Positions 56,842 through 64,000 of a stretch of 64,000 nt of DNA are shown in pieces (within the stretch, counting starts at the first letter, position 1; each line of letters begins with the position of its first letter). The DNA comes from Kitasatospora sp. SolWspMP-SS2h. Its GTDB lineage: Bacteria > Actinomycetota > Actinomycetes > Streptomycetales > Streptomycetaceae. The notes below the pieces were generated by a model. The model was not told where the DNA came from, did no database searches, and worked only from the letters and a program-made list of their open reading frames with translations. Position numbers and translations under genes: made by a program. The DNA is taken from positions 186,001 through 250,000 of the forward strand of contig NZ_QLLT01000008.1 in NCBI RefSeq assembly GCF_003259315.1. The letters run 5' to 3'.

Positions 56842-58458
56842 TCAGACCGGGGGCAGCGCGGGCGCTCCCCACGGCTCGGGCCGCGACCGCGCCAGCACCA
56901 CGCGGCTCAGCACGAAGTGCTCCCGCTCGGCCGGGCCGTACCGGTCGCTCATGTCCTCGACGCTCAGCACCTCCATGCCCTGTTGCTCGCAGTGCATCGC
57001 GAGCCACTGCCGAGCGAACCACGACGCCAGGGGCTGCTCGGGTGCCGGGGCGATCTCGACACGACCGAACACCGGCCCGCCGGCCGACTCCTGGACACCC
57101 ACCACCCACCGGTCGCCGTACCGGCCGCCGTGCAGATGGACGACCGCGATCCCGTCGCGGAACAGCTCCTCCGGGAGGTCGAGCGTCGTGGATGCCACCT
57201 GCTGGAGCAGCATGCCCGCGTACAGGCCCAGCAGATCCGGCTGGAACGCCTGGTCCAGCAGGCCGCGCGAACGGTTCGCGGCGTCCTTGACCAGGTGGGC
57301 GTAGACGCGCAGGGTGAACCCCGGATCGCTGTGGCCGAGGTAGCTGCTCAGCGCCTTTGGGTTCTCACCGCGGTGCAGCAGGACCGACGCGAAGTAGTGC
57401 CGGAGCGCGTGCATGCCGTGCTCACGGGCGGCCGGCGCGCGTTTACCACGCTCGGGCGCGGGGATGACGCCCGCCTCCACCAGCGCGGGCTTCCACGCAT
57501 AGGTGTTGAAGTCGCTGCGGCGGATCGGTCCGCCGTCGTCCTTGGTGAAAGCCAGAAGCTTCGTCACCATGCGCCCGCCCGGCCTGATCCATGGCAGGGT
57601 CACCTCGACGGGCGGGTACTCCGCCAGGTGGCCCTGCAAGGCCCGTCCGGTGGCCGGAGCCATCGGCGTGTCCCGCTCCTTCTCGCGCTTCGGCGGAGCG
57701 AACACCAGGTGGCCGCCGATGTCCTTGATCTGGCAGGTGACGTGCACCCAGCCGGTGGCGAAGTCGATCTCGTCGACCGGCAGGCCGAAGATCTCCCCTT
57801 GCCGAAGACCACAGCCGCCGCCCACGTCCACCATTCCCCGGTACCGGCCGGGCAGAGCGGAGCGGACGGCTCCCACCTGTTCGTCCGTCCAGGGCCGCAC
57901 CCTGGCCCGGGTGCTGCTGGGCTTGGTGACGGAACGGGACCGGCACGGGTTCGTCGTCAGGATGCGGTCTTCGACGGCAGCGGTGAAGATGGCTGAGACG
58001 CTGGTGAAGATGACGCGCCGGTAGGACGACGCCGGAACGGCCTTCTCCAGCGCGAACAGCCAGGCGCGGATGTGCGAGGGCTGGAACGACTCCATCGGGC
58101 GGGTACCCAGGTACGGGATCGCGTGCAGGGTGATCTGGCTCCGCACCGACGCCTGTGTGGTGCCGCTGGTGAGCTGGTTCTCCAGCCACCGCTCGGCGTA
58201 CTGGCGGAACGTGGTCCGGGCGGCCTTCGGGTCGACGTACTGGCCCCGGGACATGTCCGTCTCGATCTCGGACAACCAGATCTCGGCCTTGCGCTTCTGG
58301 CGGTCGGGGAAGCTTTTCGACTTCTCAGTGCCGTCGGGGCCGATGTAGCGGGCCCGATAGCGCATGCCGATGCCGTGGCGGTCCGACTTGACCCGGATGG
58401 GCTTGCCGTCGGGTCCGGGCTCGGTCTTGAACCAGCGGTCCTGGACGTGTCCGGCCAA
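56842..58458 (-). CDS. Tyrosine site-specific integrase with C-terminal extension
   Basis: 538 residues. An AP2-like/N-terminal DNA-binding region is followed by a core-binding domain (TFRQYAERWLENQLTSGTTQ) and the catalytic domain: Arg in GCGLRQGEIFG (~216), H-x-x-R in MHALRHYFAS (~350), LGHSDPGF and Tyr in TLRVYAHLV (~385). About 150 residues follow the Tyr (FRDGIAVVHLHGGRYGDRWV ... LASWFARQWLAMHC), far more than usual. The start is probably the TTG at 58458 with GGGAGG eight bases upstream, inside the excisionase gene end; the GTG at 58446 is an alternative. It integrates the element next to glnA2. Confidence 0.92.
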   Translation of the reverse strand: MAGHVQDRWFKTEPGPDGKPIRVKSDRHGIGMRYRARYIGPDGTEKSKSFPDRQKRKAEIWLSEIETDMSRGQYVDPKAARTTFRQYAERWLENQLTSGTTQASVRSQITLHAIPYLGTRPMESFQPSHIRAWLFALEKAVPASSYRRVIFTSVSAIFTAAVEDRILTTNPCRSRSVTKPSSTRARVRPWTDEQVGAVRSALPGRYRGMVDVGGGCGLRQGEIFGLPVDEIDFATGWVHVTCQIKDIGGHLVFAPPKREKERDTPMAPATGRALQGHLAEYPPVEVTLPWIRPGGRMVTKLLAFTKDDGGPIRRSDFNTYAWKPALVEAGVIPAPERGKRAPAAREHGMHALRHYFASVLLHRGENPKALSSYLGHSDPGFTLRVYAHLVKDAANRSRGLLDQAFQPDLLGLYAGMLLQQVASTTLDLPEELFRDGIAVVHLHGGRYGDRWVVGVQESAGGPVFGRVEIAPAPEQPLASWFARQWLAMHCEQQGMEVLSVEDMSDRYGPAEREHFVLSRVVLARSRPEPWGAPALPPV

Positions 58459-58460
58459 GG

Positions 58461-58712
58461 TCAGGCCACCTCCCGTCCCTTGGCGGCCACCCACTGGGCG
58501 ACCTCGGCGGGGTCGTAGCGCAGGTGCCGGCCGACGCGGAATCCGGGCGGGCCGGTGCGCTTGCGACGCCACTGGTAGACGGTCTCGACGGACGGGAGGT
58601 CGAACAGCTCTACCAGGTCCTCGGGCTTGAGGTACCGGTCGGGGAGCGGCGCCGCGGTCTTGTCGGCGCTGTGCACCAGGTGGACGGACGTCGGACGTTG
58701 GGGCTTGGGCAT
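58461..58712 (-). CDS. Excisionase-like helix-turn-helix protein
   Basis: 83 residues: LKPEDLVELFDLPSVETVYQ then WRRKRTGPPGFRVGRHLRYD and VAQWVAAKG, the HTH_17/MerR-like fold typical of Xis and small excision factors. Translation is coupled to the integrase, which starts two bases after its stop. AAGGAA before the ATG at 58712. The GTGACA repeats lie upstream. Confidence 0.88.
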   Translation of the reverse strand: MPKPQRPTSVHLVHSADKTAAPLPDRYLKPEDLVELFDLPSVETVYQWRRKRTGPPGFRVGRHLRYDPAEVAQWVAAKGREVA

Positions 58713-58765: not shown

Positions 58766-58878
58766 GTGACAGGCGAAGGGGGTGTCACAGCGGGGTGTCA
58801 CTGCGATTTATGCAGCTCAGAGCCCCGTAGTGACAGCGGTGACAGCTGTGACAGATACAGGCGCGGCGGAACTGTCAC
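58766..58878. repeat. GTGACA/TGTCAC iteron-like cluster
   Basis: Four GTGACA and three TGTCAC copies occur in ~110 bases. Three are strict 9-base direct repeats (GTGACAGCG, GTGACAGCT, GTGACAGAT) at 58830-58856. The last copy lies over the stop codon of the helicase gene. The cluster separates the excisionase and helicase genes. It fits iterons of a replication origin, or Xis/Int arm binding sites. Confidence 0.7.
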
Positions 58879-59978
58879 ACCGGCTCGGGAACGACGTACG
58901 CGCCGCTGGCGTCGGTGCTGAGCTGGCCGTCCTTGGCCATGCGGGCGCACGTCTGGCGGGTGTTGGCGTAGTCGAGTCCGGTGGCGGTGGCGATGTCTTT
59001 GGGGCGTGTGCCGGGGTTGTTGCGGACGTGGTTGAGGATGGTGGAGCGGGTGTCGCCGATGGTGTGGTCGCCGGCGGGTCCTTCGAGGAGGAGCCAACTG
59101 CCGCTCTCGGGTTGGAAGCTGAGGGCGTGTTCGGCTTCGTCGACGTCGCGGCCGGTGATGTGGAGGACGCCGTCGGCTTTGCCGCGGGAGCGTTTGAGGA
59201 CGAGTGTGGCGTCGGCGGCTCCGGCGAGGCCGTTGGTGCCGGAGACCTCGGCGAGGAAGTCGTCGGAGCCCATTTTGCGGACGTGGTGGACCAGGATCGT
59301 TGCGACCGAGTGTCGGTCGGCGACTTGCTTGGCGTAGCCGATGGCGGCGTAGTCGGCGTCGTAGGCGGCGATGCCGGGCGGGGAGGTGCCGCGGACTTTG
59401 GCGAAGACGTCGATGACGACGAGTCGGGCGTCGGGGTTGCGGGTGAGCCAGTTGTCGAGGGCGTCGGCGCCGCCCTGGGGCAGGGCGGGGAATTCGGTGG
59501 CGATGGTGAGGTCGCGGGGTGCGGGGCGGCCGTTGAGGAGTTTGCCCATGCGGGTCTTGAGGCGTCGGGGGGTGTCTTCCAGGGCGAGGTAGAGCACCGG
59601 GCCCGCTTCGACGGGAACGGAGCCGAAGGCGGGTCGGCCGGCGGCGACGTCGAGGCCGAGGCCGAGGGAGAGCCAGGACTTGCCGACCTTGGGCGGTCCG
59701 GCAAGGAGGCTGACGCCTTCGGCGAAGAACCCGGGAACGGCCCAGCGGGGTTCGGGGAAGTCGGTGGCCATCAGGTCGGCCGCATTCCACACCGCGCGGG
59801 GCCTGGGCGGGCCCTGGGCCGCAGAAGCGCCTTGCGGGGGTGCGGGGGTGGCAGCGGCCCACGGGTCCGTGTCGGGGGCGGGTTCGTCGGGCCAGGAGGC
59901 GTCTGCGGGGTCGTCGTGGACGACGCGCAGTCGCGGCGTGGTGGGGCGGGGGTCTTCGGGCCCGGCGGGGCGGGTCAC
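58875..59978 (-). CDS. RepA-like AAA ATPase/helicase (AAA_25)
   Basis: 367 residues. Walker A AGPPKVGKSW (~94-101), Walker B LVVIDVFAKV (Asp190) and sensor-like TILVHHVRKMGSDD (~229-240). The C-terminal ~70 residues form a winged helix (TRPKDIATATGLDYANTRQT). The family acts as hexameric helicase of plasmid and integrative-element replication. It overlaps the primase-polymerase stop by four bases (GTGA). GTG 59978. Confidence 0.9.
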   Translation of the reverse strand: MTRPAGPEDPRPTTPRLRVVHDDPADASWPDEPAPDTDPWAAATPAPPQGASAAQGPPRPRAVWNAADLMATDFPEPRWAVPGFFAEGVSLLAGPPKVGKSWLSLGLGLDVAAGRPAFGSVPVEAGPVLYLALEDTPRRLKTRMGKLLNGRPAPRDLTIATEFPALPQGGADALDNWLTRNPDARLVVIDVFAKVRGTSPPGIAAYDADYAAIGYAKQVADRHSVATILVHHVRKMGSDDFLAEVSGTNGLAGAADATLVLKRSRGKADGVLHITGRDVDEAEHALSFQPESGSWLLLEGPAGDHTIGDTRSTILNHVRNNPGTRPKDIATATGLDYANTRQTCARMAKDGQLSTDASGAYVVPEPV

Positions 59979-60844
59979 GCGGCGCGTCCGACGGTGGCGT
60001 AGCCGTTGGCGACGGCTCGGGCGGCGTAGGCGTGGGGGACGCCGACGGACACGGCGGCGGCGATGAGGTGTTCGGCGGCGGCGTCGAGGGCGCAGGGACC
60101 GGGGCAGCGGGTGTGCTGGGCGGCGAGGAACCCGGCGACGAAGTAGGTCTGCGAGCCCGCGCCGGTCTCGGTGCGGCTGCGGATCCTAGCGACGGCGCGT
60201 TCGATGCCGGTGCGGATGAACGTGTCGTTGTGCCTGCACCCGTGGCCCAGTGTCCGCGTCCAGGGTGCGGCGGGGGTGGAAAGGCCCACCCCTCCCGCGG
60301 GGGCGGGGGTGGTGCTTTCACTGCGGGAGGCGAGTGCCCGGACGGCGTCGGGCAGGGTGGTCATGGTGCCGGTGCCAGGGCCGAGCCAGCGGACGTAGGA
60401 CGCGTGGGACTTGATGTCGACGCCGGGGCGGACGGAGTTCGCGGAGGGCATGACGTCGCGGTAGACCCAGTGCTCACCGCGGTCGGTGGGCACGGTCTTG
60501 GTCGGCGGCATCGCGGAGCGGGCCCAGGCGACCGCGGCGGGGGTGTCGAGGTCGAGGACGGTGACCCCGGCGCCGCCCGGGTGGTAGGCGACCGTGGTGG
60601 CCTCGCGCCACGCGGCCACCCAGGCCGGGCTGGTGAGAACGCCGACGTCGGTGGTCGCGGCGGCCCAGCCGTGGCATGGCCTGGGGCACGCGCAGGACCC
60701 TGCGGCCTTCATGTTCGGTCGGCCGCCGCACGCGTTCGCGGCGCAGTCCCAGCAGTTGCCCACGGGGAGCTTCCCGTTCCGCAGCGGCAGGGCGGGCAGA
60801 TTCGCCCGGGCGAGGTGGACCGCGAGGCGCAGGATGCTGCTCAT
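59975..60844 (-). CDS. Primase-polymerase (Prim-Pol) of the integrative element
   Basis: 289 residues. Prim-Pol core: LAVHLARANLPALPLRNGKL, a Cys cluster (NCWDCAANACGG; CACPRPCHGW), and the catalytic D-x-D GVTVLDLDTPAAVAW (Asp98 and Asp100). VDIKSHASYVRWLGPG follows, then a C-terminal helical region that probably contacts the helicase. RepPP-type AICEs of actinomycetes use such enzymes to prime and copy DNA. The ATG at 60844 has AAAGGAGAA. It is coupled to the helicase gene. Confidence 0.9.
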   Translation of the reverse strand: MSSILRLAVHLARANLPALPLRNGKLPVGNCWDCAANACGGRPNMKAAGSCACPRPCHGWAAATTDVGVLTSPAWVAAWREATTVAYHPGGAGVTVLDLDTPAAVAWARSAMPPTKTVPTDRGEHWVYRDVMPSANSVRPGVDIKSHASYVRWLGPGTGTMTTLPDAVRALASRSESTTPAPAGGVGLSTPAAPWTRTLGHGCRHNDTFIRTGIERAVARIRSRTETGAGSQTYFVAGFLAAQHTRCPGPCALDAAAEHLIAAAVSVGVPHAYAARAVANGYATVGRAA

Positions 60845-60909: not shown

Positions 60910-61605
60910 TCAGGCGGCGCGGAGCGCCCGAGCGGGCTGCGGGTTGGTGGTGAGGGCGTCGGTCCATGCGGTGCGCAGGTGGGTGCGGTCGCGGTGGTCG
61001 ACGGCGGAGGAGTCGAGGCGGATGGGCATCTGGAGGCCGAGGAAGTCGTGGCCGGCGGCGATGAGGAGGGGCTTGTCCGGTCCGGCGGACCAGAGGGTGA
61101 GGGGTTCGTGGCGTTCGGCGGGGGCGTGGTGCCAGCGGGCTAGGAAGTCGGCGCTGTAGTGGGCTTCTTGGGTGAGCTGGGGTTCGGCGGCGAGGGCGTC
61201 GGCGAACAGGTGCCGCCACTTGGGGAAGTGGGAGGCTTCCTCGGCGTGGGCGGACAGCTGAAGGGCGCGGTCGCCGTCGCTGACGGACAGCCATGTCTCG
61301 GCACCGGGCCACGCCTGCTCGTAGGTGAGGGTGTGCTCGGTGCGGTGGCGGCGGCAGGTGAAGAGGGCCTTGAGGGCGGTGAGGTCGGACTTGGCGATGA
61401 GGGCGCGCCAGGGGCCGTTGGCGGTGTCGTCGGGGGTTTCGTGGCGGGTGAGGGCGAAGGTGTAGCGGTCGGTGGCGCAGGCGAACAGGTGGGTGCCGGT
61501 GGCTTCGAGGTAGATGCCGTTGATGCTGGGGAGGGTGGTGTCGGTGCTGATGTGCGGGGCGAGGCGGCGGATGATGCCGGGCAGGTCGGGCAGGGTGACG
61601 GGCAC
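60910..61605 (-). CDS. Two-domain DnaN-like sliding clamp homologue
   Basis: 231 residues. LPSINGIYLEATGTHLFACA followed by TDRYTFALTRHE matches a DnaN domain core (ATD-x-Y-x-LA). The C-terminal half has GPDKPLLIAAGHDFLGLQMP then IRL, much like the DnaN tail (LLMPMRL). Bacterial beta clamps have three such domains and ~370 residues; here only two fit, the length of phage T4 gp45 (228 aa). A role as element-specific processivity factor for Prim-Pol or for host Pol III is inferred. The start is the GTG at 61605 with GGAGG. It is coupled within the replication operon. Confidence 0.7.
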   Translation of the reverse strand: MPVTLPDLPGIIRRLAPHISTDTTLPSINGIYLEATGTHLFACATDRYTFALTRHETPDDTANGPWRALIAKSDLTALKALFTCRRHRTEHTLTYEQAWPGAETWLSVSDGDRALQLSAHAEEASHFPKWRHLFADALAAEPQLTQEAHYSADFLARWHHAPAERHEPLTLWSAGPDKPLLIAAGHDFLGLQMPIRLDSSAVDHRDRTHLRTAWTDALTTNPQPARALRAA

Positions 61606-61621
61606 GGCTAGTTCCTCCTGG

Positions 61622-61977
61622 TCAGAACAGGGCGGCGGGTTCGGCGGGCGGCTGCGCGGCCGCGGCGCTCTTGCGGGCGGCGGTGCGGGCGGCGTGGTGG
61701 CAGGTCGGGCACCAGGCGGCGAGGCGGGCCGCGGGGAGGGCGGCGGCCCGGTGGTCAGGCAGGGCCAGGTCGGCGGGGTCGGCGGGTGCGGCGAGGAGGC
61801 GGACCCGGCCGCCGCCGTGGGTGCGGTGGGAGCCGTCCTCGCGGGGCACCGGTCGCCGTCCTTGGCGTGAGACTTGCCGCAGGCGCCGGAGCACTGGCAG
61901 CGGTCGGCGGCGGCGGCCATGACGGCCCGCCACAGGCCGGTGTCGCCCAGCGGAGCGGGCGCGGTCGGGGCGCTCAC
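61622..61977 (-). pseudogene. Cys-rich small protein gene with a single-base frameshift
   Basis: The start frame reads VSAPTAPAPLGDTGLWRAVM then CQCSGACGKSHAKDGDRCP. The next frame continues REDGSHRTHGGGRVRLLAAP, then ADPADLALPDHRAAALP and AAWCPTCHHAARTA. Joining them at a run of four G on the plus strand (61843-61846) with one extra base gives a ~119-residue protein with CxC-x3-C and CxxC pairs, probably zinc-binding, of a kind common on actinobacterial phages and integrative elements. GTGA couples it to the methyltransferase. Frameshift or sequencing error; function unknown. Confidence 0.6.
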
Positions 61978-62234
61978 GCGGCCCATCCGGTGGCGAGTTC
62001 CTGGCCGGTGACGGCCTCCACCAGGGCGGAGACCAGGACTTCGGCGACGTTGCTGGTGACGGCGTTGCCGAACTGGCGGACCTTCTCGCGCTTGTTGCCG
62101 ACGACCACGTAGTCCGGGAGGAAGGTCATGGCCGCGCCGATCTCGTGCGGCTCCAGCATCCGGAACAGCACGTCGTCGACCGCGGCAGGGCTCCCGCCCA
62201 CGGCGGCGAGGCCGTAGCGGTCGCGGGTGGTCAT
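61974..62234 (-). CDS. C-terminal part (motif X) of the C5-cytosine DNA methyltransferase
   Basis: 86 residues from ATG 62234, which overlaps the stop of the larger ORF (ATGA). It contains motifs IX-X: LPDYVVVGNKREKVRQFGNA then VTSNVAEVLV, which close the SAM-binding fold. In one reading with the larger part (one added base near 62253-62258) the junction is GTGAARP-VAEPVGTMTTRDRYG, a normal full-length enzyme. As written it is a separate, coupled subunit, as in the split enzyme M.AquI. Confidence 0.75.
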   Translation of the reverse strand: MTTRDRYGLAAVGGSPAAVDDVLFRMLEPHEIGAAMTFLPDYVVVGNKREKVRQFGNAVTSNVAEVLVSALVEAVTGQELATGWAA

Positions 62235-63544
62235 CGTGCCGACGGGCTCGGCGACGGGCGGGCGGCGCCGGTGCCGTAGTACGGGGTGAGCAGCGCCGAC
62301 CAGTCGACGGGGCCGCCGGTGGGGAGGGCGAGGCCGTGGTGGTTGCCGGAGGCGGTGACGGTGGCGAGGGCGTCGAGGACGGGGCGGGCGTCGGAGGAGC
62401 CGCCGCGCAGTTCGGCGATGAACGGCAGCCACGCGAGGCCGGTCTCGTTGCGGGCGGTCTGGGTGCGCAGCGGTTCGATCGCGGCGGTGGCGCTCTTGCC
62501 GTCGCGGCCTTCGGTGGGGACGAGCAGGGGCGGCGGGGCGGTGGTGGTGAGGCCGTGGTTGCCGCCGTCGGCGACGACGGTGGCGAGCGGGTCGCGGCCG
62601 GCGAGGAGGGAGCGGTTGCGGTCGGAGCGCAGCGGGACCAGGAACGGCGGGGTGCCGTCGGGGGTGGCGTAGCGGCGAAGGCCGGCTTGGATGCGGGCGA
62701 GGGTCTTGTCGGCGAGGGGCTTGGCGCGGCCGCCGACGCGCTGGCCGGGCAGGGACCAGTCGATGATGCTCGCCGCGGGGACCACCGGCGGTTCGACGAT
62801 CTGGTTGCGGCAGGTGACGTGGGGGCAGCGGTAGGCGTACTGCTGGCGGTAGCGGCCCATGTCCGCGCCGGGGCGCTTGAACGCCTGCACCGCGCGCACC
62901 CACTCCTCGCACGTCGTGCACCACGCCTTGGGGCGCAGCCACTTGTCCCAGTCGGGGGTGCGGCCCAACTCGCGCCGCCAGTAGGCGAGGTAGAGGCGGT
63001 CGCGGGACTGCGGCGCGACGGGGGTGACGGCGGGTCGGGCGTGCATGGAGTTGAGGGCGATCAGGCGGGTGGCGTAGCCGAGGTCGCGGATGTCCTGCAC
63101 CCAGCGGGTCCACAGGTCCCAGGCGCGGACGTCGATGACGTTCTCCACGACGCCGGCGAGGACGGGTTTGCCGCGGCAGGCCATGGCCTCCAGGTAGCGG
63201 GGGACGTCCCACATCAGGGCGCGGGAGCGGTCGGTGGCGGCGTCGGGGAGGGTCTCGCCGAACAGGTCGGGCTGCTTGTCGAAGTCCCGCTTCACCCCGC
63301 GGGCGGTGGACCACTTCGGGCACTCCGGGGAGGCCCAGAACAGGTCTGCGGCGGGGAACTTGGCGACGTCGGCGTCGTGCAGGTCGCCGAGGAAGTGGTC
63401 GGCGTCGGGGAAGTTCGCCGAGTGCGAGGCGATGGCCTTGTCCCAGTGGTTCGCCGCGAGTGCGGCCTTCACCCCGGGCACTCGCTCCGCGCCGGCGCTG
63501 CTGCCGCCCGCGCCGCAGAAGAAGTCGATGTAGGTCAGCGTCAC
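62231..63544 (-). CDS. C5-cytosine DNA methyltransferase, N-terminal part with catalytic motifs
   Basis: 437 residues. Motif I IDFFCGAGGSSAGAE (~7-20), motif IV LFWASPECPKWS (catalytic Cys75), motif VI VVENVID (Glu134), motif VIII PQSRDRLYLAYW (Gln179). A target-recognition region with WCTTCEEW and RCPHVTCRN (Cys pairs) follows. It methylates cytosine within an unknown sequence, perhaps for protection from host restriction. The frame ends in a PSPSPSAR tail after GTGAARP, and motifs IX-X are in the next frame. The GTG at 63544 overlaps the stop of a 31-residue ORF. It belongs to the element's operon. Confidence 0.88.
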   Translation of the reverse strand: MTLTYIDFFCGAGGSSAGAERVPGVKAALAANHWDKAIASHSANFPDADHFLGDLHDADVAKFPAADLFWASPECPKWSTARGVKRDFDKQPDLFGETLPDAATDRSRALMWDVPRYLEAMACRGKPVLAGVVENVIDVRAWDLWTRWVQDIRDLGYATRLIALNSMHARPAVTPVAPQSRDRLYLAYWRRELGRTPDWDKWLRPKAWCTTCEEWVRAVQAFKRPGADMGRYRQQYAYRCPHVTCRNQIVEPPVVPAASIIDWSLPGQRVGGRAKPLADKTLARIQAGLRRYATPDGTPPFLVPLRSDRNRSLLAGRDPLATVVADGGNHGLTTTAPPPLLVPTEGRDGKSATAAIEPLRTQTARNETGLAWLPFIAELRGGSSDARPVLDALATVTASGNHHGLALPTGGPVDWSALLTPYYGTGAARPSPSPSAR

Positions 63545-63636
63545 CGGGCACCCCCGGCCTGGATGGTGCGGTGGTCGCCGCTGTCGCGGTCGTTGTCGTC
63601 GATGAGGGCGGGCGTGCGGGTGGTGAACTCGGGCAT
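63541..63636 (-). CDS. 31-residue ORF coupled to the methyltransferase
   Basis: MPEFTTRTPALIDDNDRDSG then DHRTIQAGGAR. ATG 63636 follows AGGAAG; its stop overlaps the methyltransferase start (GTGA). Acidic and hydrophilic. Possibly a small modulatory or leader peptide. Confidence 0.45.
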   Translation of the reverse strand: MPEFTTRTPALIDDNDRDSGDHRTIQAGGAR

Positions 63637-63746: not shown

Positions 63747-64000
63747 CTAGAAGGGCGGTTCCTCGCTGAATCCGGCCGGGCTTCCGCCGAAGCCGCCCGA
63801 CGGCGCCGCGGGTCCCGCGGTGGTGGCTGCGGCGGGGGCGGCGGTGGCCCAGGGGTCGGTCTGGGCGGGGGTGTTGGTGCGCTGGGCGCGGGTGACCTTG
63901 GCGGTGGCGAAGCGCAGCGAGGGGCCGATGTCGTCGAGGTCGAGGCCGAGCATGGAGCGGTTCTCGCCCTGGTCGGTCTGCCAGTTGTGCTGGACGAGTC
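63747..64000 (-). CDS. ssb: Single-stranded DNA-binding protein, 3' part (5' end outside window)
   Basis: The visible 84 codons encode the end of an OB fold (LVQHNWQTDQGENRSMLGLD, DLDDIGPSLRFATAKVTRA), a Gly/Pro/Ala-rich linker, and the acidic tip GFSEEPPF, the variant of the DDIPF tail used to bind partners. It is the first gene seen of the element replication operon from the right. Confidence 0.88.
   Translation of the reverse strand, partial: LVQHNWQTDQGENRSMLGLDLDDIGPSLRFATAKVTRAQRTNTPAQTDPWATAAPAAATTAGPAAPSGGFGGSPAGFSEEPPF

Follow-up and report, generated by a model that had tools for sequence, protein, structure and literature searches.

The window, i.e. the whole 64,000-nucleotide stretch of Kitasatospora sp. 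SolWspMP-SS2h DNA that was analyzed (contig NZ_QLLT01000008.1, positions 186,001 to 250,000), carries near its right end a gene encoding a 231-residue protein, P0001, that is related to the bacterial sliding clamp DnaN. The features of this region are as follows:

56842..58509, minus strand: tyrosine integrase (PF00589, 7e-13), with 58509 being the edge of the scanned stretch and not a settled start
58461..58712, minus strand: HTH_17 excisionase-like gene (PF12728, 2e-8; PHROG 66, 1e-7)
58875..59978, minus strand: AAA_25 helicase-type gene (PF13481, 3e-35)
59975..60844, minus strand: Prim-Pol-type (AEP) gene, 289 aa, next downstream of the P0001 gene (PHROG 5852, 9e-6)
60910..61605, minus strand: clamp-derived gene of P0001, 231 aa plus stop (ORF read and DnaN homology)
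61614..61619, minus strand: Shine-Dalgarno-like AGGAGG, 8 bases 5' of the GTG (read directly)
62231..63544, minus strand: C-5 cytosine methyltransferase, N-terminal part (PF00145, 2e-13)
63747..64000, minus strand: SSB gene, C-terminal part (NCBIfam PRK07772, 7e-12)

The P0001 gene starts with GTG at 61605. Directly before it lies a small Cys-rich HNH-like stretch (61622-61986), seemingly spread over two frames; further upstream (61974-63551) the methyltransferase ORF stops at 62231 and the gene looks interrupted, with what we take to be C-terminal methyltransferase motif residues continuing in another frame beyond that point. On the downstream side, the AAA_25 gene, with weaker matches to phage DnaB-like helicase families in PHROG, shares 4 bases with the Prim-Pol-type gene. 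The latter was unrecognized by Pfam, PF09250 included; by profile match it pairs with the PF09250 Prim-Pols of relatives (94.8%, E 5e-8). The SSB gene extends out of the window, reaching about L032:10247, and matches PF00436 at 3e-22 when the longer stretch is scanned; the element also bears a DUF6197 gene and an FtsK/SpoIIIE Tra gene (PF01580, 3e-8). The trio of an actinomycete integrative and conjugative element (AICE), comprising tyrosine integrase, Prim-Pol-type protein (identified by PHROG and profile only) and FtsK/SpoIIIE Tra protein, is found together here, in agreement with the first-pass annotation, which had placed the gene on an integrative element alongside Prim-Pol, helicase and SSB genes; all three neighbors are present (by PHROG/profile, PF13481 and PRK07772, respectively). 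Passages of PMC3218068 describe modules of this kind for AICEs, and the legend of a Frankia AICE figure there includes a 'DNA_pol3_beta_2' gene, which can be likened to P0001 by domain label alone. When att repeats were looked for, L032 2600-2900 and 15000-19000 shared no stretch of more than 10 bases; one 15-base exact pair (L032 4451 and 17477, the former at the xis-int junction) is perhaps due to chance, and no tRNA gene was found.

Among 19 relatives fetched for gene order, all 10 close ones (L095-L104) have the clamp-like gene separated from AAA_25 by an AEP gene, which is of the window lineage in 3, recognized by PF09250 in 6 and assigned by eye in 1 (L100); the Prim-Pol-type lineage varies among these otherwise similar elements while the neighbors stay. 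With window proteins as queries, the order clamp-AEP-AAA_25 was not seen in the 9 wider relatives (L105-L113); in one of these (L106) the Prim-Pol and SSB are present further from the clamp-like gene, and elsewhere (L069) AEP and AAA_25 are adjacent but about 5 kb from it.

Judged by sequence, P0001 is a relative of DnaN, with a likeness beyond chance. Both motifs from which the clamp had initially been recognized, ATDRYTFALT and QMPIRL, are found in it. As a single sequence, P0001 matches Pfam DNA_pol3_beta_2 at E 8e-5 (23.3 bits, under the Pfam cut-off of 27), PHROG 947 (processivity factor) at E 1.3e-9 and PHROG 12598 (labeled 'RusA-like') at E 2e-30, with phmmer placing the top solved DnaN at only E 0.043. 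A profile built from 29 relatives reached a solved DnaN at E 7.4e-21, with profile positions 5-137 covering DnaN 136-271, i.e. the central domain, and a short extra match at the DnaN C-terminus that was not significant alone. By hhalign, 43 family members matched a set of 19 DnaNs with a probability of 99.6% (18 of 24 loci were used for the DnaN set, 6 having been removed for frame or length). The profile search that had been proposed as a check on the clamp homology thus did find a clamp, namely DnaN, and the homology is borne out further by the AlphaFold model of P0001 (pLDDT 88, pTM 0.83). Based on this model and the alignments, the protein is divided as follows:

61228..61605, minus strand: residues 1-126, complete DnaN central domain made of two beta-alpha-beta-beta-beta half-units (AlphaFold secondary structure, profile alignment)
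61165..61227, minus strand: residues 127-147, FPKWR linker and predicted helix 131-139, in the place of the first half of DnaN domain III (AlphaFold, profile alignment)
61015..61164, minus strand: residues 148-197, second half of DnaN domain III with the pocket motif MPIRL at its end (AlphaFold, VIA-align, profile alignment)
60913..61014, minus strand: residues 198-231, tail with predicted helix 207-219 bearing Trp214 (AlphaFold, family alignment)

P0001 is thus predicted to combine a whole DnaN central domain with just the second half of domain III, as evidenced by: 1) VIA-align superposed residues 1-197 of the model on residues 126-366 of E. coli DnaN (chain 6fvl_D) with Z 18.6 and rmsd 2.1 over 180 of 241 residues, so that the half domain sits at its DnaN position; 2) hhalign paired residues 1-138 with E. 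coli DnaN 128-252 and residues 140-197 with 308-366, leaving 54 of the 55 DnaN residues 253-307 unpaired; 3) the model of a relative 38% identical to P0001 (L083) placed residues 1-182 on DnaN 127-366 (Z 18.2, rmsd 2.0, 175 residues), with a core like that of P0001 plus a helical C-terminal region, the two models not being independent since both were built from the same 19 sequences. Neither three complete DnaN domains nor two complete domains (four half-units) are found; P0001 lacks domain I as well as the first half of domain III, and both models show three half-units. While the motifs stand, the two domains that they had been taken to mark do not, the profile alignment and the two models ruling out that reading in favor of one complete and one half domain; similarly, the annotation was right that DnaN parts are absent, but what has been lost is domain I and half of domain III, not a third domain as such. 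The likeness in length to T4 gp45, whose chain is similarly long, also stands, although it is the 34-residue tail and longer linker that make up the length. A gp45-like architecture, and with it a trimeric ring of that type, is not supported by three half-units in place of four. All 50 VIA-align matches listed are bacterial beta clamps, with gp45 and PCNA not among the matches listed. As for a neighbor supplying the lost domain I or III, Pfam scans of the element genes tested yielded none. Across the genome, PF02768 matched the host DnaN only; PF00712 matched it too, along with a MerR fusion that lies outside the window (E 1e-3); and PF02767 matched both of these and P0001. The tail helix is modeled with pLDDT of about 84 over residues 211-220, and Trp is found at position 214 in 37 of 37 ungapped sequences among 38 non-redundant relatives.

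We then compared the parts of DnaN that close the ring with those that hold client proteins, using E. coli pocket and interface residues named in passages of a review (PMC11139829). The 14 interface residues checked, seven from domain I and seven from domain III, comprise 13 named for the interface there and Leu82, which appears there only through a dimerization mutant. By hhalign, all 14 fall within the parts missing from P0001. In the pocket that receives client motifs, all 18 DnaN positions have a partner in P0001 by the same alignment, 13 being the same or similar in character by our judgment and 5 altered (Arg152->Leu, Gly174->Arg, Arg176->Thr, Arg246->His and Val344->Asp, DnaN numbering). 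The Arg replacing Gly174 also occurs in the host DnaN. Given the five altered positions, P0001 may bind standard motifs with a different affinity or no longer bind them. Among 38 non-redundant members, conservation was 0.539 over the 18 pocket columns vs. 0.245 over the 164 other usable core columns (permutation p 1e-4; p 0.008 within structured positions), and dN/dS was lower at the pocket than in the rest of the core (0.49 vs. 0.87). The tail helix with Trp214 could occupy this pocket or form a new interface.

In tblastn searches, P0001 found 13 phage records (9 Gordonia, 2 Mycobacterium and 2 Rhodococcus, several being duplicates of one phage) and 8 plasmid records (6 Streptomyces, 2 mycobacterial). 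In two sets of related genomes, it matched 24 of 150 and 23 of 249, the genome of the window being counted both times; 4 of the 24 matches are DnaN or have a complete domain III by eye. Single-protein scans with P0001 found no relatives in genome contigs or viral contigs; with a closer alignment as query, 4 were found in the former and 3 in the latter. For the family alignment, L001 and L022-L025 were excluded as DnaN or as having a complete domain III by eye; the 43-member set also omits L029, L034, L037, L040 and L065, and L072 and L075 were omitted from A7. The 43 aligned relatives, from phages, plasmids and genomes, have the 1.5-domain plan in common and range from 213 to 401 aa, with 21 of them being at least 329 aa long and carrying a C-terminal extension. 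In Gordonia phage BBQValindra, a 349-aa protein outside the 43-member set (L029:7977-9023) has a clamp-like core and a C-terminal FtsK_gamma domain (E 9e-17), its DnaN match being weak (0.024) and its half-domain plan judged by eye. Phages Eyes and Ewald have proteins equal to it in length. Predicted viral proteins include further clamp-like matches of about 200 aa, among them one of Burkholderia phage AH2 (209 aa), the phage whose gp20, of the same length, is given as DNA polymerase III beta subunit in part of PMC3483164.

The family, the fold and the clamp annotation of relatives are already known. The proteins of REQ2, Horus, Tortellini and Jace, which align with P0001 across the whole core, are annotated 'DNA polymerase III sliding clamp' or 'RusA-like', with the missing half-domain unremarked there. 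The full name of PHROG 12598, 'RusA-like Holliday junction resolvase', looks misleading, a database label to which the P0001 family draws attention: in phage Jace, gp77 is annotated RusA, whereas the PHROG 12598 member, gp60 (L026:7923-8648), is clamp-like. The literature on short or phage clamps gave us no account of a 1.5-domain DnaN, nor did we find there a description of this predicted plan, of an interface apparently lost while the pocket is kept, or of the adjacency to Prim-Pol and helicase genes.

Nei-Gojobori dN/dS of the clamp-like gene ranged from 0.35 to 1.0 across six close pairs, ratios that do not clearly show purifying selection on the whole gene. When the window gene was compared with those of 6 relatives, dN/dS was 0.67-0.98, the highest of 6-8 element genes each time, the 5-7 others not including the Prim-Pol, xis and the 174-aa ORF, and the six comparisons sharing one gene, that of the window. 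These high values fit a conflict with host partners but also relaxed constraint. Synonymous change in codons 1-60 (window 61426-61605) is about half that of other segments (pS 0.124 vs. 0.20-0.29). In the 11 close sequences, two alternative frames have few stops or none; we do not adopt dual coding as the cause of the low synonymous change, as a GC3 of 0.93-0.97 can explain the open frames.

The usual teaching presents sliding clamps as closed rings that must encircle DNA in order to work. In P0001, the retention of a docking surface without the ring-closing parts suggests a docking adaptor or decoy over a ring clamp. With the ring-closing parts lost and the client groove kept, we favor, tentatively and with a confidence just short of even, the view that P0001 is a ring-less clamp-derived docking adaptor for host clamp-binding proteins. 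By sequence and structure prediction, P0001 retains the central domain together with the latter half of domain III in the DnaN arrangement, which rebuilds the groove for clamp-binding motifs; the two sides of the interface that closes the ring reside in domain I and in the first half of domain III, both of which are absent. On this reading, P0001 would be a monomer or a small open assembly, holding Pol III alpha, clamp-loader delta, DinB and the like near the Prim-Pol/helicase complex of the element. Recruitment would proceed via protein contacts and not by encirclement of DNA, and in some phage relatives also via the fused FtsK-gamma DNA-binding domain. Where the clients come from is hinted at by the element itself: none of the 13 element ORFs translated (some starts, and the frame of a 103-aa ORF, being unsure) contains the strict clamp-binding consensus, not even the Prim-Pol, in whose tail a search for such a motif had been suggested, although Gln-less motifs would be missed and the shuffling expectation is itself low (0.01-0.20 per ORF, below 1 in all 13), so that the result weakly suggests that the clients may be host proteins.

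That P0001 forms a ring of a new geometry, e.g. with four 1.5-domain subunits, and serves as a processivity factor, seems unlikely to us. The arithmetic would allow it, as four times three half-units make the 12 of a clamp ring, the gene is linked to Prim-Pol-type, helicase-type and SSB genes, and the predicted helices 131-139 and 207-219, with the constant Trp214, might build a new interface; however, every DnaN interface residue checked is missing, and head-to-tail packing would, going by general clamp geometry, have to join faces that are unpaired in DnaN. We give the same low standing to the proposal that P0001 acts as a decoy, tying up the clamp loader or other host proteins that bind the clamp and thereby slowing host replication or favoring the element. 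In its favor, the gene had the top dN/dS of those compared in each of the 6 relatives, delta is bound about 50 times more tightly by a monomeric beta mutant than by the beta dimer (in passages of PMC11139829), and overexpression of the phage clamps Waterfoul gp48 (376 aa; part of PMC9339283) or Adephagia gene 35 (1,209 bases; part of PMC11373665) inhibits growth of Mycobacterium smegmatis, the latter gene being among the most toxic of its phage and suggested by the authors to interfere with host replication. Nevertheless, both of these are longer and may not belong to the P0001 family, and the same-strand linkage with Prim-Pol-type and helicase-type genes suggests a role in element replication. 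Least probable, and in our view improbable, is a processivity factor that holds DNA directly without a ring in the manner of HSV UL42, since, although ring-less viral clamps exist (UL42 as a monomer, HCMV UL44 as a C-shaped dimer), some family members are basic, and monomeric beta binds DNA, if without being able to tether Pol III for processive synthesis (passages of PMC11139829), the viral clamps are described as rich in positive charge (excerpts of PMC9690074) and the pI of P0001 is 6.3 (family core median 6.3, range 5.0-9.9 among 43 members), which disfavors a basic DNA-holding protein even though several relatives are basic, and only the Prim-Pol-type gene was recognized as a polymerase among the element ORFs scanned.

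The proposed docking adaptor can be placed among known clamps by what it shares and lacks. With DnaN, P0001 shares the central domain and the latter half of domain III, set relative to each other as in DnaN, as well as the pocket positions; it differs in lacking domain I, the first half of domain III and the checked interface residues, and in adding helices in the linker and in the tail, the tail helix bearing Trp214. With T4 gp45 and PCNA it has the clamp fold in common, but it has three half-units instead of four, and both its sequence and its listed structure matches point to DnaN. E. coli beta*, a shorter DnaN made after UV, also lacks domain I but keeps all of domain III, half of which is missing from P0001. 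UL42 and UL44 are a precedent for clamp folds that do not close a ring, differing in that they are positively charged and hold DNA directly (excerpts of PMC9690074). We further postulate, as a possibility that we regard as doubtful, that a protein family found on actinobacterial integrative elements, plasmids and phages has turned the clamp into a ring-less adaptor, reduced to the smallest arc that rebuilds the groove and recruiting host replication proteins "by address" and not by topology; if so, its members would adjoin element replication genes or, in some phages, be fused to FtsK-gamma. A clamp that kept its groove and dropped ring closure would separate the two clamp roles and make the pure-adaptor clamp testable, and the family would offer small natural candidate binders of actinobacterial clamp-client proteins.

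Two further observations concern clamp modules in other settings. On a viral contig, a stand-alone 128-aa ORF (L075:3685-4068) is the counterpart of the helical C-terminal region found in the long clamp-like proteins. The MerR-clamp fusion is a 370-aa ORF (L094:9384-10496) on the same contig as the window, about 9 kb left of its start; it joins a MerR-type domain (PF13411, 6e-14) to a DnaN central domain (PF02767, 5e-9) and a domain III-like end recognized by eye, i.e. a clamp module within a regulator.
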